Positions 8,190-34,321 of a DNA stretch of 64,000 bases are shown here, piece after piece. The stretch is from NCBI GenBank assembly GCA_014695255.1, contig JACJNX010000046.1, forward strand, positions 62,001 to 126,000, written 5' to 3'. Each line of letters starts with the position of its first letter. Position 1 is the first letter of the stretch. Source of the stretch: Cyanobacteria bacterium FACHB-63 (GTDB lineage: Bacteria > Cyanobacteriota > Cyanobacteriia > Leptolyngbyales > Leptolyngbyaceae). A program made the translations under genes and the position numbers. The notes under the pieces were generated by a model. It made no database searches, had not been told where the DNA came from, and saw nothing but the letters and a program-made list of their open reading frames with translations.

Positions 8190-9098
8190 TTATTTTTTCA
8201 CCAATTTGAGAAACACATCGACTAAATTTGCTTGATCTTTTTCCATCCGCACGATCGAGAACGGCTTCAAAATTTCCAGCGCGTGATACAGCCATTCAGT
8301 CTGACGAACATAAACCGTTTTGCCTTCAATCACCGCATCGATCGCGCTTAATTTGCTAATGCGATCGTCGTCTAATTCCTGCTCTAATTCAATTCGATAT
8401 GAATCGCCGGAAAACTGCTGAATGAGCGTCTCGGTTCTTTCTTGTGCGACAAGTTCGCCTTCCTTGATAATTGCAACGCGATCAGACAGTTCTTCAGCAA
8501 TATCAAGCTGGTGAGTGGTTAATAAAATTCCTCGTCCCTCTGCCGCAATCTCTCGCACTAACCGCTTCACCGTCTGAGTCGCTTCTACATCTAGCCCCAA
8601 AGTCGGTTCATCCAGCAGAAGTAACTGCGGTTCGTGAATCAACGCAACAGCGATCGCCAACTTTTGCTGCATTCCGCGTGAGAGATTTTGAACGATCGTC
8701 GTTCGCTTCGGCATCAGTTCAAATCGCTCTAGTAAAGCCTTAGCTCTCTGTCGCGCCACGTACCCGCTTAATCCCCGCAGCACCCCAAAATACTCTAAAT
8801 TCTCCTCCGGAGTCAGCCGCCAGTAAACATTCCGATTGCCTTCGAGAACAGCGCCAACCGATTTAAGCGCGATCGACTGGCGATGCGGATCTCGTCCAGC
8901 GATTTTGACCTGTCCGCGATCGGGCAGAATCAACCCCGCAATCATTTTGATCGTCGTTGTTTTTCCGGCTCCATTTGCGCCCAGAAACGCCAAGACTTCA
9001 CCCGCACCGATATTAAAAGAGACATTTCTTACGGCTTCAACAGTCTTTCCGCCACTCTGATATGTCTTTTGTAATTGCTCAACTTCTAGAACTTGCAT
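8190..9098 (-). CDS. ABC transporter ATP-binding protein (ABC-2 exporter type)
   Basis: 302 residues from the ATG at 9098; a GTG at 9110 would add four residues. All nucleotide-binding motifs are intact: Walker A GANGAGKTTT, signature LSRGMQQKLAIA, Walker B LLLLDEPTLGLD and the H-loop TTHQLD. The C-terminal 80 residues after IIKEGELVAQ form the extra domain seen in DrrA-like exporters. It is the first gene of a two-gene operon with the permease at 7416-8189. The opposite-strand bilin lyase gene starts about 200 bp away, so both promoters share this gap. Confidence 0.88.
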   Translation of the reverse strand: MQVLEVEQLQKTYQSGGKTVEAVRNVSFNIGAGEVLAFLGANGAGKTTTIKMIAGLILPDRGQVKIAGRDPHRQSIALKSVGAVLEGNRNVYWRLTPEENLEYFGVLRGLSGYVARQRAKALLERFELMPKRTTIVQNLSRGMQQKLAIAVALIHEPQLLLLDEPTLGLDVEATQTVKRLVREIAAEGRGILLTTHQLDIAEELSDRVAIIKEGELVAQERTETLIQQFSGDSYRIELEQELDDDRISKLSAIDAVIEGKTVYVRQTEWLYHALEILKPFSIVRMEKDQANLVDVFLKLVKK

Positions 9099-9303
9099 CA
9101 ACTTGCACACGCGACACTCTTATCTGTCTTGATCATGACAGACTTATTCCTCTATCGGGGGTCTATTGCTGACCTACCCATTTCTGAGTATATTAAGATT
9201 TGTGAATTTAGGCTTGATTAAATCTAACGGAAGTGGTGCAACTTCCGAATCAAAGCATATAAGTGCTGTAGCTACTATCTACTCTCTCGAAGGAGCGGTG
9301 TTT

Positions 9304-9840
9304 GTGACTGTATCTGTACTTTCCTCCACAACGGATGATCAGTTGATCGAAGCGTTTTTTCAACAATCCGAAGGGCAATGGCGATCGGAGCGCCGCTACT
9401 ACACCTTGCCCGATGGTGAAGTGAAAGAAATGGTCAGCATGATCACGATTCGCTTTTTACCGCAGGGAGCGCCCGAACTGGTCGAGCTGGCTCATCTGCA
9501 CGGACTCGAAGACGAAACCGCCATGACCTGCGGTGCAGCCGTCACCTGGGATAGTGAAAACACTGTTTCCGGGCGGACAGAATCGAAAGGCTCGACGTTA
9601 TTTGGCGTGATTGGCTCAGTGTTGTATCGCGATCGTGGATTCGCAACCACGAAACCCATCACCGCAGGGTTTTACTTCACCAATCCTGATACGCTCTGCC
9701 TCAGAACCGAATACAAAGGCTCGGTGTTTGAAGAAGAACTTAAGCTTGTTGGCAGTAAATACCGCACTCGACAAACGATCATTTCCCGCGCTGGCGAACA
9801 GCAAATGATCGGACAATACCTCGAAAAGCGCATTGCTTAA
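9304..9840 (+). CDS. CpcS/CpeS-family phycobiliprotein lyase
   Basis: 178 residues. The lipocalin-like CpcS/CpeS/CpcU enzymes attach phycocyanobilin or a related bilin to cysteines of phycobiliproteins. Family features are the N-terminal FFQQSEGQWRSERRYYTL, CGAAVTWDSEN in the centre, GSTLFGVIG, then RDRGFATTKPITAGFYF, LCLRTEYKG and YRTRQTIISR. The start is taken as GTG 9304 because AGGAG at 9291-9295 stands 8 bases before it; an upstream TTG (9166) would add 46 residues with no family match. Which lyase subtype (S, U, V) it is cannot be decided without alignment. Confidence 0.8.
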   Translation: MTVSVLSSTTDDQLIEAFFQQSEGQWRSERRYYTLPDGEVKEMVSMITIRFLPQGAPELVELAHLHGLEDETAMTCGAAVTWDSENTVSGRTESKGSTLFGVIGSVLYRDRGFATTKPITAGFYFTNPDTLCLRTEYKGSVFEEELKLVGSKYRTRQTIISRAGEQQMIGQYLEKRIA

Positions 9841-9974
9841 GGCGTTTAGCAGGGTGGGGAATTTTTTCTCGCCTTTTGTGTCAGCAAGCTGCATAAAGCG
9901 CGATCGTTCCTCCTACTGAGTGAGTGTAGAGGATGAAACACCTCACAACACACACTCAAACAAGGAAACCGATT

Positions 9975-10601
9975 ATGAAACTCGTTCAATTCTCTGGCGC
10001 TCTGGTTCTCGCTTCGACTCTGTTTGCTGGAATGATGCCCGCTCGCGCAAACGATGCTCTATTCGGCAAAATGGCAGACGGAATTCAGTGCAGCACGGCT
10101 GATGTTTCATTGGGCAATAACACCCAAAACGACATTCATCGCCAGAGTTCTTCACACCAAGCCTCCAATTCCAACAGCAGCGGCGCATGGGGCAATGCCT
10201 CAGACAGCCAATCAAGCCGCAGAACGCAGAACGCTGGTGGTGGCGGAGGAATCAGCGTGTTCGGAGTGAGCATTAGCGGTTCCGGTGGTTCGCAAAGCAG
10301 CCAACAAAGCCAAGCAAGCAGTTCTAGCGCTTACGGTCGCAACGGCAGCGCTCACAGTTCGAGCCGATCGACCAGTTCTTCATTCAGCGATCGCAGTTCT
10401 TCGACCGTCGTTCAGGGTGAGGTGAGGGACTGTAACTCTAACAACGCTGCCCGTGCAGATGTGATCACGACGCTGGATTCAAACCGTACCGCCGAGAGAA
10501 TGAACTCAGATAACAATAAAACAGCCATTGAGTTGTTCAATTCCCAGCGTCGAGCAGGTCAGGTCAACAACCTGATTCAATGGTATACACCGCAACGCTA
10601 A
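9975..10601 (+). CDS. secreted serine-rich low-complexity protein
   Basis: 208 residues from ATG 9975, preceded by AAGGA eight bases upstream. A clear signal peptide (KLVQFSGALVLASTLFAGMMPARAND) is followed by a Ser/Gln/Asn/Gly-rich core (for example SSHQASNSNSSGAWGNAS and GSAHSSSRSTSSSF) with a Gly stretch GGGGGISVFGVSISGSGG, ending in a more ordinary domain (RADVITTLDSNRTAERMNSDNN). Two cysteines (QCSTAD, RDCNSN) flank the low-complexity region and may form a disulphide. No family recognised; a surface or matrix role is only a guess. Confidence 0.7.
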   Translation: MKLVQFSGALVLASTLFAGMMPARANDALFGKMADGIQCSTADVSLGNNTQNDIHRQSSSHQASNSNSSGAWGNASDSQSSRRTQNAGGGGGISVFGVSISGSGGSQSSQQSQASSSSAYGRNGSAHSSSRSTSSSFSDRSSSTVVQGEVRDCNSNNAARADVITTLDSNRTAERMNSDNNKTAIELFNSQRRAGQVNNLIQWYTPQR

Positions 10602-31590: not shown

Positions 31591-31789
31591 AGCGTCTGTG
31601 CCCTGTTTGACTCCTTTACGCAGGCGAGGGTCAGGAATTTGTTTTAATGGGTCTATGAGGGTCGTGGACTGTTACTTTGCACTTAACTTTTCAGTCCATT
31701 CTTGTTTTCCTCAGCCTGTATGAAATCATCCTGCTTCTCCTACGGGGAGTAGAGGATGAATGTCTGGGCGAATTCTAAAGAGGCAAATC

Positions 31790-34321
31790 ATGGACGTTTT
31801 AGAGCGGGTGGAATGGCTGCGGCAGCGAACAGAATTCTCCACACTGTCATCGGACGCATTGCAGGCGATCGCGCAACAAGTTGAAGAACAGCACATTCAA
31901 GAAAACCGCCGCATTGGACTCGAAGACACGCAGCCCGAAGCACTTTACATTCTGTATGATGGGCATCTTGAGCGGTATCGCACCAGTAAAACGGGCTTGG
32001 CAAACGTCACGAGCTTAATTTCAGGGGCGATCGTCTATCTTAAAGAACTGTTGCTTGATCGCAAGGCAGAAGAAACCACAATTACCCTGAATGACTGCGT
32101 GATCTGGACAATTCCACGGGAGTCATTCAAAGCGATCACCCAACAGTTCCCCGAAATTGCTCAAGGCGTTTCGCAACAGCTTGCCACGCAGTTAGAGGAA
32201 GTGTCTTCGCAGCTTGCTTATGAGCGGGAGCAACAGATCGCCTTGCGTCCTTATCTTGTTCCAAAAGTTAAACGCGGCATTGTGGGAACCAGTCGCTATG
32301 CAGTGCGATTGCGGCAAGACATTAAAAAAGCAGCCAGCGCTCGGGGTTCTGTCTTGATCTTTGGAGAACCGGGACTGGAAAAAGACAACACTGCGGCATT
32401 GATTCATTTTGGATCGAGCGATCGTAAAGAGCCATTAATCAAAGTCAACTGCAACATGCTGCAACCTGGCGGTGCAGAAATATTTGGGCGAACGGGTAAG
32501 CCTGGATTGCTCGATTGGATTGGGCGCGGCACCATTATGCTGAACAATCTCGAAGATATTGCGCCAGAGTTTGAAGAAAAGTTAGTGCAGCTTTTGAAGA
32601 CTGGGAAGTTTACGCCGATCGTCCGCGAAGGAGAACCGGAGCCAGAAGCCCGATCATTTGAAGCGAGGCTGCTCATGACTTCTGAGAAGATTCTGCCGCG
32701 ATTGGAAAAATGTAAGCTGATCACTCATGTGATCAAGGTGCCACCCCTGCGAGTCAGAAAAGCGGATATTGCCGTTCAAGCAGAGTATTACCTGAGTTTG
32801 ATTGCTCGATCGCGCGGCATCTCTAAGCCCAAGATTACACCCGAAGCGTTACGCCGACTCCAAGGTTATGACTTTCCTGGAAATCATGTCGAACTTGAAA
32901 GCTTACTGGGGCGGGCAATTACTCAAGCAGAAGGCGCAGAACTCACCGAAGAGGTGTTCTGGGCAGCAGGCAATAAAAATCGCCGATTTCGGGTCAATCT
33001 GCTTAATGCTTATCCCAAGTTGCGGCAGTTCCTCAGAAGTTCCTGGTGGCCAGATCGGATCAATTACGGCTTTACTTTGGGAGTTTTTGCCGTTGTCGTC
33101 ACCGTGTTGATGGTGGCACCGCAGAGTCGCGATCGTAATTTCGCTCTGAATCTATTCTGGGCGTGGTGGTGGATGCTGATTCTGGTTGCATTCCCCTTTG
33201 TCGGACGGCTTTGGTGTGCGGTTTGTCCGTTTATGATTTACGGTGAACTGGCGCAAAAGATTTCTCTCTGGCTCTATCCGCGTAAGCTACAACCTTGGCC
33301 CAGACAAGCGGCTGAGAAGTGGGGTGGCTGGTTTCTGTTTGGTATGTTCACACTGATTCTACTGTGGGAAGAACTGTGGAACTTAGAAAACACGGCTTAT
33401 CTGTCGGGCTATTTATTGCTGTTGATTACGGCTGGAGCCGTTATCTTTTCTGTGTTGTTTGAGCGGCGATTTTGGTGTCGATATCTCTGTCCGATCGGCG
33501 GCATGAATGGCTTATTTGCTAAGCTCGCCATGATTGAACTCCGGGCACAGCAAGGAATTTGTTCTGCAACTTGTACGACCTATCAGTGCTACAAAGGCGG
33601 ACCGCAAAAAGGCGAAGGCATGGAAACTGGAGGCTGTCCTATCTATTCACATCCAGCACAGCTTCGGGATAATCGCGATTGTGTGTTGTGTATGACCTGC
33701 CTGAAAGCTTGTCCTCATCGATCGGTCGAACTGAACCTGCGTCCACCGGGAATAGAGCTATGGACGACCCATCAACCGACTTATCCTGAGGTTTGCTTAT
33801 TGTTTCTGCTGTTTGGAGCGGTGTTTTTGCATCGGCTTCCTGCAATTCAACAACTACTGGGTATCAATCTCCATCTTGAGCAATTTAGCTATCACGCGAT
33901 CGTCTCGATTCTTGCTTTGATGTTGCCCGGAGCCGTTGCACTGTTGTTTGATCGCCTGATGAGACTGTTCAATCGACGATCGCGCCCTTTTCTTGAACTC
34001 GCGTATGGTTATCTTCCGCTGGTTTTAGGTGCGAGTTTAGCGTACTACTTACACTTGGGACTCAACGAAGCAGGACGCATTCTTCCAGTGACGGTTGCAA
34101 CCTTTGGCGGTAGCACAGAACTAATGGCAGCTTTACCGATCGCAGTCGCTCATCCTGCTGTGATTGAATTCTTGCAAGCTGTCACGATCGTCGGATCATT
34201 TTGGCTGAGTGTCTTTCTAACGCAGAAAATTGCTCGACAACCGATTCGATCGCTTCTCCTGCAACATAGTGCGATGGTGCTTCTCGGATCATTGTTATGG
34301 CGATTAATTGTTGTTGCCTAG
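31790..34321 (+). CDS. three-part fusion: cyclic-nucleotide-binding-like domain, degenerate sigma54-activator-like AAA+ domain, membrane polyferredoxin (NapH/NosR-like)
   Basis: 843 residues from ATG 31790, which has AAAGAGG six bases upstream; an ATG at 31760 would add ten. Residues 1-140 resemble a cNMP-binding domain (FSTLSSDALQAIAQQ, LYILYDGHLERYR). Residues 160-395 follow the fold of NtrC-type AAA+ domains, but the Walker A position reads GEPGLEKDN, the GAFTGA loop is missing (IFGRTGKPGLLDWIGRG) and Walker B reads TIMLNNLED. Residues 420-843 hold about nine membrane helices with cysteine clusters at 476/479, 563/567, 591/595/600, 616 and 631/634/637/641 (CVLCMTCLKACP), i.e. [4Fe-4S] sites. 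Likely a membrane redox protein with a sensory head; cyanobacteria lack sigma54, so it is not a sigma54 activator. Confidence 0.8.
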   Translation: MDVLERVEWLRQRTEFSTLSSDALQAIAQQVEEQHIQENRRIGLEDTQPEALYILYDGHLERYRTSKTGLANVTSLISGAIVYLKELLLDRKAEETTITLNDCVIWTIPRESFKAITQQFPEIAQGVSQQLATQLEEVSSQLAYEREQQIALRPYLVPKVKRGIVGTSRYAVRLRQDIKKAASARGSVLIFGEPGLEKDNTAALIHFGSSDRKEPLIKVNCNMLQPGGAEIFGRTGKPGLLDWIGRGTIMLNNLEDIAPEFEEKLVQLLKTGKFTPIVREGEPEPEARSFEARLLMTSEKILPRLEKCKLITHVIKVPPLRVRKADIAVQAEYYLSLIARSRGISKPKITPEALRRLQGYDFPGNHVELESLLGRAITQAEGAELTEEVFWAAGNKNRRFRVNLLNAYPKLRQFLRSSWWPDRINYGFTLGVFAVVVTVLMVAPQSRDRNFALNLFWAWWWMLILVAFPFVGRLWCAVCPFMIYGELAQKISLWLYPRKLQPWPRQAAEKWGGWFLFGMFTLILLWEELWNLENTAYLSGYLLLLITAGAVIFSVLFERRFWCRYLCPIGGMNGLFAKLAMIELRAQQGICSATCTTYQCYKGGPQKGEGMETGGCPIYSHPAQLRDNRDCVLCMTCLKACPHRSVELNLRPPGIELWTTHQPTYPEVCLLFLLFGAVFLHRLPAIQQLLGINLHLEQFSYHAIVSILALMLPGAVALLFDRLMRLFNRRSRPFLELAYGYLPLVLGASLAYYLHLGLNEAGRILPVTVATFGGSTELMAALPIAVAHPAVIEFLQAVTIVGSFWLSVFLTQKIARQPIRSLLLQHSAMVLLGSLLWRLIVVA

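Follow-up and report, generated by a model that had tools for sequence, protein, structure and literature searches.

A gene in the 64,000-nucleotide stretch of the Cyanobacteria bacterium FACHB-63 genome analysed here (the window) encodes a protein in which Pfam recognises, in this order, a cyclic nucleotide-binding (CNB) head, an AAA+ domain of the sigma54-activator type and a membrane iron-sulfur (Fe-S) module. Each of these domains is known; what seems new is a membrane polyferredoxin bearing a new kind of head. The combination is apparently undescribed, and no account of it was found in the open-access literature searched. Roughly two in three of the cyanobacterial genomes searched carry the gene (263/388). 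The functions that its domains invite, sigma54 activator and receptor of cyclic nucleoside monophosphates (cNMPs), are contradicted by the protein's own sequence, and the family protein probably works as a redox switch and does not activate genes, since one branch sits in sulfide/low-oxygen gene islands. We tentatively favour, at slightly less than an even chance, a membrane polyferredoxin gated by a nucleotide-bound, non-hydrolysing pseudo-AAA+ head, because the electron-carrier module is the most conserved part and the head has kept its lysine while losing its motor and transcription features. The protein is thereby a testable candidate for how cyanobacteria read the redox state of the quinone pool and of sulfide, and an instance of an activator ATPase domain that seems to have been retained solely to bind nucleotide.

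The AAA+ and CNB head

Matches above the Pfam cut-offs cover the CNB domain (cNMP_binding, PF00027, residues 45-129, 36.1 bits), the AAA+ core (Sigma54_activat, PF00158, residues 174-290, 46.4 bits) and its lid (AAA_lid_14, PF25601, residues 331-402, 41.8 bits). The 25 NCBIfam matches listed are all sub-threshold, the head pointing to NifA, NorR and others and the tail to NapH. In the predicted model of the whole protein (mean predicted local distance difference test, pLDDT, 88; predicted template modelling score, pTM, 0.64) the head has the fold of an ordinary activator AAA+ domain, matching FleQ (6jdi; Z 25.4, root-mean-square deviation 2.1, 228 aligned residues), NtrC1 (1ny6; Z 24.5) and VpsR (7v2b; Z 22.8). 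An earlier sequence-only reading of the window had assigned the domain to this type, as the Pfam and structure matches confirm, and the motifs that it quoted are in place: GEPGLEKDN (residues 202-210), MLNNLED (260-266), PPLRVRKADI (328-337) and ALRRLQGYDFPGN (363-375).

Conservation was counted over 146 non-redundant homologues of at least 600 amino acids (68 of clade A, the window protein included, 16 picocyanobacterial and 62 of clade B), left after removal of 10 sequences shorter than 600 amino acids and 7 near-duplicates from 163. The Walker A lysine (Lys208) and His216 are present in all 146 homologues, the Walker B glutamate in none (0/146), and no GAFTGA-like string was found in any of them (0/146); the Walker B aspartate is retained in 0/68 clade A, 12/16 picocyanobacterial and 36/62 clade B sequences. 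The lack of the GAFTGA loop and an altered Walker B, both noted previously, hold throughout the aligned homologues, the real loss being that of the Walker B glutamate. Conversely, the description of Walker A as degenerate was overstated. The altered letters are there (GEPGLEKDN in 49 clade A sequences, GEPGLGKDN in 11, with minor other forms), but the lysine is invariant and clade B reads G-K-T: glycine precedes the lysine in 12/68 clade A, 2/16 picocyanobacterial and 62/62 clade B sequences, and threonine follows it in 61/62 of clade B (AQPGTGKTF and similar). A residue other than threonine or serine after this lysine is usual in AAA+ domains of the sigma54-activator type, since the aligned NifA reads GESGTGKE; the true departures in the window protein are the L and chiefly the E at the fifth and sixth positions. 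The NifA segment FREDLYYRLN, considered for the arginine fingers, was aligned with a stretch of the window protein that has no matching arginine. Most simply, these patterns suggest that the loss of ATP hydrolysis predates the divergence of the clades and that the phosphate-gripping lysine was never lost.

No helix-turn-helix (HTH) family was found in the 853 amino acids among Pfam matches to E 1, and the host genome has no match to PF04552 (Sigma54_DBD), hence none to rpoN. With the Walker B glutamate and GAFTGA missing, the Walker A lysine invariant and no rpoN or HTH match, the head is likely to bind a nucleotide but not to hydrolyse it, and a repurposed activator domain, as first proposed, is the natural reading. 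A sigma54 activator is ruled out. Across the phylum, PF04552 was matched at E <= 0.001 in 11/386 genomes and above the cut-off in 2, namely by a 207-aa frame in genome G125 (2.3e-16) and weakly in G224 (23 bits). The former (G125:C1:411956-412339, minus strand), which matches the sigma54 DNA-binding domain, is an oddity in its own right, as sigma54 is unexpected in a cyanobacterial genome. A 2011 survey reports that none of the 29 cyanobacteria sequenced by then has sigma54 or true activators, and that false positives for such activators in databases often stem from unchecked GAFTGA motifs (PMC3162934). Of the two annotated plasmid copies of the family that were seen, one is named 'nitrogen assimilation regulatory protein', the other 'cyclic nucleotide-binding domain-containing protein'. 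The window protein shares with NtrC, NifA, PspF and FleQ the AAA+ fold, the lid and the Walker A lysine; unlike these enhancer-binding proteins it lacks GAFTGA, the Walker B glutamate, an HTH match and an rpoN match in its genome, and it has a predicted membrane anchor.

The AAA+ part is tandem-duplicated in 1121-aa proteins of two genomes of one genus (G398 and G404; loci L229:4143-7508 and L230:4786-8151), where the extra copy reads GEAGVGKVN and LVLDHLQ; G412, of the same genus, has a frame of similar length.

As for the CNB domain, its fold is recognised both by PF00027 and by a match to the regulatory subunit of protein kinase A (5kbf, 7.5e-7). The arginine shared by 5kbf and the CRP-type protein 4ev0, which is the phosphate-binding cassette arginine of cNMP-binding CNB domains, aligns in the window protein with an alanine followed by Glu-Glu. 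Counted as missing when fewer than 20 residues cover positions 45-129, the domain is absent from 5/68 clade A, 16/16 picocyanobacterial and 3/62 clade B proteins. Because the arginine is replaced and several lineages lack the domain, the domain is unlikely to sense cAMP or cGMP and may have some other ligand. Of the cNMP-like sensor suggested before, the fold therefore stands and the cNMP receptor is unlikely. The Synechocystis gene slr0593, called a 'cAMP binding membrane protein' in PMC3516471, may be a member of the family.

The membrane Fe-S module

The C-terminal half scores above the cut-off with Fer4_5 (PF12801, 40.7 bits, two stretches), and its CxxCP and CxxxCP motifs follow transmembrane (TM) helices. 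Residues 409-853 hold 13 cysteines and not the 'about eleven' counted earlier; 12 are conserved, eleven of them (486, 489, 573, 577, 601, 605, 610, 626, 641, 644 and 647) in 146/146 homologues and Cys651 in 145/146. By the pairing rule of two-cluster ferredoxins, the cysteines of the ferredoxin-like segment would be grouped as 601/605/610/651 and 626/641/644/647. Together, TM1-TM4 and the ferredoxin-like segment are the most conserved part of the protein (mean identity 0.80, versus 0.61 for the AAA+ and 0.38 for the CNB domain, over 400 sampled clade A pairs). Further on, E677, Y749, P753, E770 and Q806 of the TM5-TM9 extension are invariant in a 64-sequence alignment.

Nine TM helices were set by hand from the helices of the model. 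With these, 27 lysines and arginines fall in the loops on the side of the head and 2 on the other, and all twelve conserved cysteines are predicted to lie on the side of the head. The proposal of electron transfer across the membrane finds no support, since this predicted topology places the cysteines and the head on one face.

The claimed fusion to a NapH-like Fe-S membrane module is upheld by Fer4_5 and by a sub-threshold match to the NapH/MauN family (TIGR02163). This likeness extends over residues 480-658 (CxxCP, CxxxCP and the ferredoxin-like segment); its 52.2 bits are far under the curated cut-off of 213.05, the match stops before the last five predicted TM helices, and the window protein differs in having a head fused. 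NosR has an FMN-binding domain; in this respect the window protein differs, as no FMN-binding family was found among its Pfam matches to E 1. When reference structures were sought for the membrane half, the sequence search gave weak ferredoxin matches only (best E 0.053), and structure searches were filled by the AAA+ part and so uninformative on this half.

Homologous membrane modules occur outside the cyanobacteria, in Deinococcus, in haloarchaea and in an Azospirillum 4Fe-4S protein encoded beside FTR1, which we take to be FtrD-like. In Deinococcus ficus the module stands alone, with its C-terminal helices and all 12 cysteines (31% identity over residues 413-846), and it does so, C-terminal helices included, on haloarchaeal plasmids (about 25% identity); no CNB or AAA match was found in the Deinococcus and three haloarchaeal standalone proteins. 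Since the module occurs alone in these organisms, the cyanobacterial protein looks like a head joined onto an older membrane module. Five haloarchaeal homologues and the Azospirillum protein have 8 cysteines, lacking 601, 610 and 651 together, a pattern consistent with one cluster less; which of 605 and 626 is retained varies with the alignment. All twelve are present in one of two Sulfurovum proteins.

The neighbours of these relatives may be recorded here. In D. ficus the gene for the lone membrane module shares a few bases with that of a His-rich protein which, judged by eye, seems to have a signal peptide (L219:8042-8968 and 8965-10323), and the haloarchaeal and Azospirillum standalone relatives at loci L227, L224 and L226 have metal transport, DsrE/TusA or FTR1 genes within some kb.

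Spread of the family and gene neighbourhoods

The gene is single-copy in its own genome (Table 1). Two start codons are available, and the second, at residue 11, is probably the true one, because most relatives among the matches listed align from query residues 5-18; the start adopted in the sequence-only reading is accordingly the likelier. Homologues at E <= 1e-20 occur in 104/386 genomes of the phylum and in 263/388 genomes of the class, spanning 126/160 genera (all 263 positive genomes are listed, single matches in part). Most matches listed are open frames, and a few have a stop or a split frame (G257, G342). One picocyanobacterial copy (L055, G342:C8) consists of two adjacent frames with the AAA+ and Fe-S parts separate, through fission or a frameshift.

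Table 1. Features of the gene in the window, with examples of the micropeptide from other loci
Feature	Position	Strand	Basis and remarks
Whole gene, 853-aa open reading frame	31760..34321	+	ATG to stop; likelier start ATG 31790
CNB head, residues 13-130, phosphate-binding Arg replaced	31796..32149	+	PF00027, alignments, model
Long linker helix, residues 131-170	32150..32269	+	model (helix 132-165)
AAA+ core, sigma54-activator type, residues 172-300	32273..32659	+	PF00158, structure matches
Walker A GEPGLEKDN, residues 202-210, Lys208 146/146	32363..32389	+	alignment
Site of missing GAFTGA loop, residues 242-251	32483..32512	+	alignments
Walker B TIMLNNLED, residues 258-266, without the catalytic Glu (0/146)	32531..32557	+	alignment
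AAA+ lid, residues 301-402	32660..32965	+	PF25601
TM1-TM4, residues 429-566	33044..33457	+	model, limits set by hand
CxxCP, Cys486 and Cys489, after TM2, predicted cytoplasmic	33215..33229	+	alignment, topology
CxxxCP, Cys573 and Cys577, after TM4, predicted cytoplasmic	33476..33493	+	alignment, topology
Ferredoxin-like segment, Cys601, 605, 610, 626, 641, 644, 647, 651	33533..33739	+	two putative clusters, pairing inferred
TM5-TM9 extension, residues 675-852	33782..34315	+	model, topology
Micropeptide example	L097:7834-7923	-	
Micropeptide example	L107:10566-10652	+	
Micropeptide example	L218:6817-6903	-	

In a FastTree phylogeny of the membrane module, clade B (62 sequences) and the picocyanobacterial clade (16) are each monophyletic with support 1.0; clade A (70), to which the window protein belongs, is monophyletic with support of only 0.345. 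The predicted model of a clade B protein has a mean pLDDT of 76.7 and a pTM of 0.50.

Clade B loci were taken from a genome scan, in which the best 80 of 569 confirmed relatives, all with cyanobacterial titles, included 65 of clade B. At 34/65 of these loci the cysteine synthase gene cysK follows the family gene within 1 kb and in the same orientation (in 5 of the 65 fewer than 200 bases downstream were visible), compared with a cysK nearby in 2/88 clade A and picocyanobacterial loci (L066 and L072; the window is among the 88). A separate set of clade B loci gave 5/10, some of its genomes overlapping with the 65. Sulfur genes (cysK, rhodanese, persulfide-dioxygenase-like, SQR-like, TauE-like, ArsR, HdrB, a DsrE-like group and DUF302) accompany the family gene in 41/65 clade B versus 4/88 other loci, or in 20/65 versus 2/88 when cysK is left out, and low-oxygen genes (cydA, cydB, psbA, heme oxygenase, hemN, nrdG and FeoB) in 15/65 versus 4/88; the control loci offered more sequence (1531 kb versus 850 kb). 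Twenty neighbour representatives were run on NCBIfam and ten of them also on Pfam; NCBIfam gave no match there for the heme oxygenase, TauE and DsrE-like groups, and these groups, like cydB and FeoB, were named by eye. A study of Synechococcus PCC 7002 reports a marked rise of pdo, rhod, tauE and cysK2 under polysulfide (PMC12466478). The main texts on Geitlerinema PCC 9228 (PMC5061849) and Phormidium pseudopriestleyi (PMC8002359) mention no cyclic nucleotide, 4Fe-4S, cysK or sigma-54. The link between clade B and cysK offers a physiological handle in anoxygenic and low-oxygen cyanobacteria.

Among the clade A and picocyanobacterial loci, no gene group of at least 60 amino acids within six genes recurs at more than 6 of the 88, and no functional link of the window gene's own neighbours was found within the same limits. 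A glycosyltransferase-like gene (by eye) lies upstream in 5 of the 88 loci, and also in L229. On plasmids of Aulosira laxa (typed conjugative) and Pseudanabaena galeata (L222, L223) a homologue is followed by cysK, and the same stretch carries psbA and petC, the latter a second petC. This homologue is 38% identical to the window protein and was taken as clade B; the stretch is possibly a mobile island for photosynthesis under sulfide and low oxygen.

Proposed mechanism, its alternatives and a divergent micropeptide

In the mechanism that we propose, cytoplasmic [4Fe-4S] centres would mediate electron exchange of the quinone pool with a partner in the cytosol. The head, derived from a sigma54-activator AAA+ domain, would bind nucleotide and gate the Fe-S module by its conformation, with no hydrolysis, and the CNB domain, its cNMP signature lost, might tune the gate, the lineages without it keeping the rest. 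Clade A would represent the general form and clade B the one at work in a setting of sulfide, polysulfide and low oxygen, its gene lying with that of a cysteine synthase, a likely sink for sulfide.

Several observations count against this scheme. A hydropathy scan yields 11 peaks in the membrane half, of which nine were counted as TM helices and those at 576-594 and 779-797 omitted, and the Fe-S loop 601-638 is modelled with a pLDDT below 50. The sulfur and low-oxygen gene sets were picked after the clade B neighbours had been viewed, with queries from clade B loci and kinship uncorrected; there are no sulfur genes near the family gene of the window, and among the clade A and picocyanobacterial loci they occur in only 4/88. 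In PCC 7002 sqr falls under polysulfide (PMC12466478). No NtcA, SyCRP, FNR or HLR1 box is enriched upstream of the family genes: the NtcA box precedes 3/69 clade A targets versus 35/676 controls and 5/58 clade B targets versus 26/483 controls, and SyCRP, FNR and HLR1 boxes precede 0/69 in clade A. Finally, clade A and the picocyanobacterial clade are grouped in the tree with support of only 0.16, so the family may have split earlier along other lines than those between a general and a sulfide form.

The main rival reverses the direction of control: the Fe-S module would be a redox sensor signalling through the head, an account that we regard as unlikely, if by no means negligible. A head devoid of hydrolytic and DNA-binding machinery would suit protein docking, and the conditions of the clade B islands should reduce the quinone pool. 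However, the NapH and FtrD-like relatives are known as electron carriers and not as sensors, and no partner gene common to all clades was found. Cyanobacterial Fe-S sensing of plastoquinone does exist in CSK/Hik2 (PMC6949291), which would be the shared trait if the sensor interpretation is right; CSK/Hik2 are nevertheless histidine kinases and share no Pfam domain with the window protein.

A role in assembly or maturation, with electrons or a chaperone-like push being supplied for the building of a metal cofactor or photosynthetic complex, appears improbable. NosR and CcoG act in this way for their targets, and the AAA+ ancestry, the wide spread (263/388 class genomes) and the metal transport genes near standalone relatives in Natronorubrum and Azospirillum would agree with it. 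On the other hand, the absence of the catalytic glutamate from all 146 homologues is contrary to a remodelling motor, and no conserved client gene was found nearby.

An unusual transcription activator working with sigma70 is very unlikely, despite the presence of VpsR among the matches by sequence and by fold. VpsR and TyrR, which lack GAFTGA too, keep DNA binding and act in transcription, whereas no HTH domain was found in the 853 amino acids of the window protein, which has nine predicted TM helices. VpsR resembles it in having an AAA+ domain of the same type with the loop missing, and GAFTGA-less homologues that use sigma70 are known (PMC3162934); TyrR is treated in PMC1173090.

A misread or decaying gene, to which the altered Walker motifs and the stops or split frames of a few homologues (G257, G342) might point, can be dismissed: identical alterations recur across the 68 clade A sequences, frames are intact in most matches listed, and homologues are widespread. 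Walker A is intact in sister clade B, but the changes are lineage-wide and not sequencing errors.

Returning to the nucleotide-set gate, a more elaborate version of it may be considered, in which the AAA+ head acts as a nucleotide-set valve or reporter on a quinone-linked polyferredoxin and so links the adenylate state with the redox state of plastoquinone and sulfide, while a divergently encoded micropeptide of about 30 amino acids is the second subunit. We give this version little credence; if true, it would represent an unrecognised coupling. The peptide itself came to light through the strongest upstream dyad of clade A (14/69 versus 1/400), rejected as a regulatory site because it is mostly coding sequence. 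It is an unannotated, single-helix membrane peptide of 27-32 amino acids (consensus MxxxDLPNLWVPLALLGLIVLAAVFFSRS), encoded divergently upstream of the family gene in 18/88 loci, 14 times at a distance of 37-381 bases, once overlapping and three times at 1.2-5.3 kb; it was also found at L127, L204 and L218, and the same pattern gave none at clade B or picocyanobacterial loci or in the window. Three of the peptides have no Pfam or NCBIfam match, one has no significant PDB match (best E 0.47), and the open-access papers listed for the peptide string do not contain it.

A profile of the micropeptide matches 137/388 genomes, and the family is present in 131/137 of these versus 132/251 others. Both family genes of G066 are preceded by a copy, at 55-62 bases from where their match begins. 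Unlinked copies speak against a simple partner story, as does shared ancestry, which inflates the co-occurrence. One such relative is encoded in the window's own genome (G000:C68:98961-99017), unlinked to the family gene; in this and five further weaker-scoring genomes inspected the micropeptide lies apart from the family gene, between a LapA-domain-like gene and scpA, as judged by eye.

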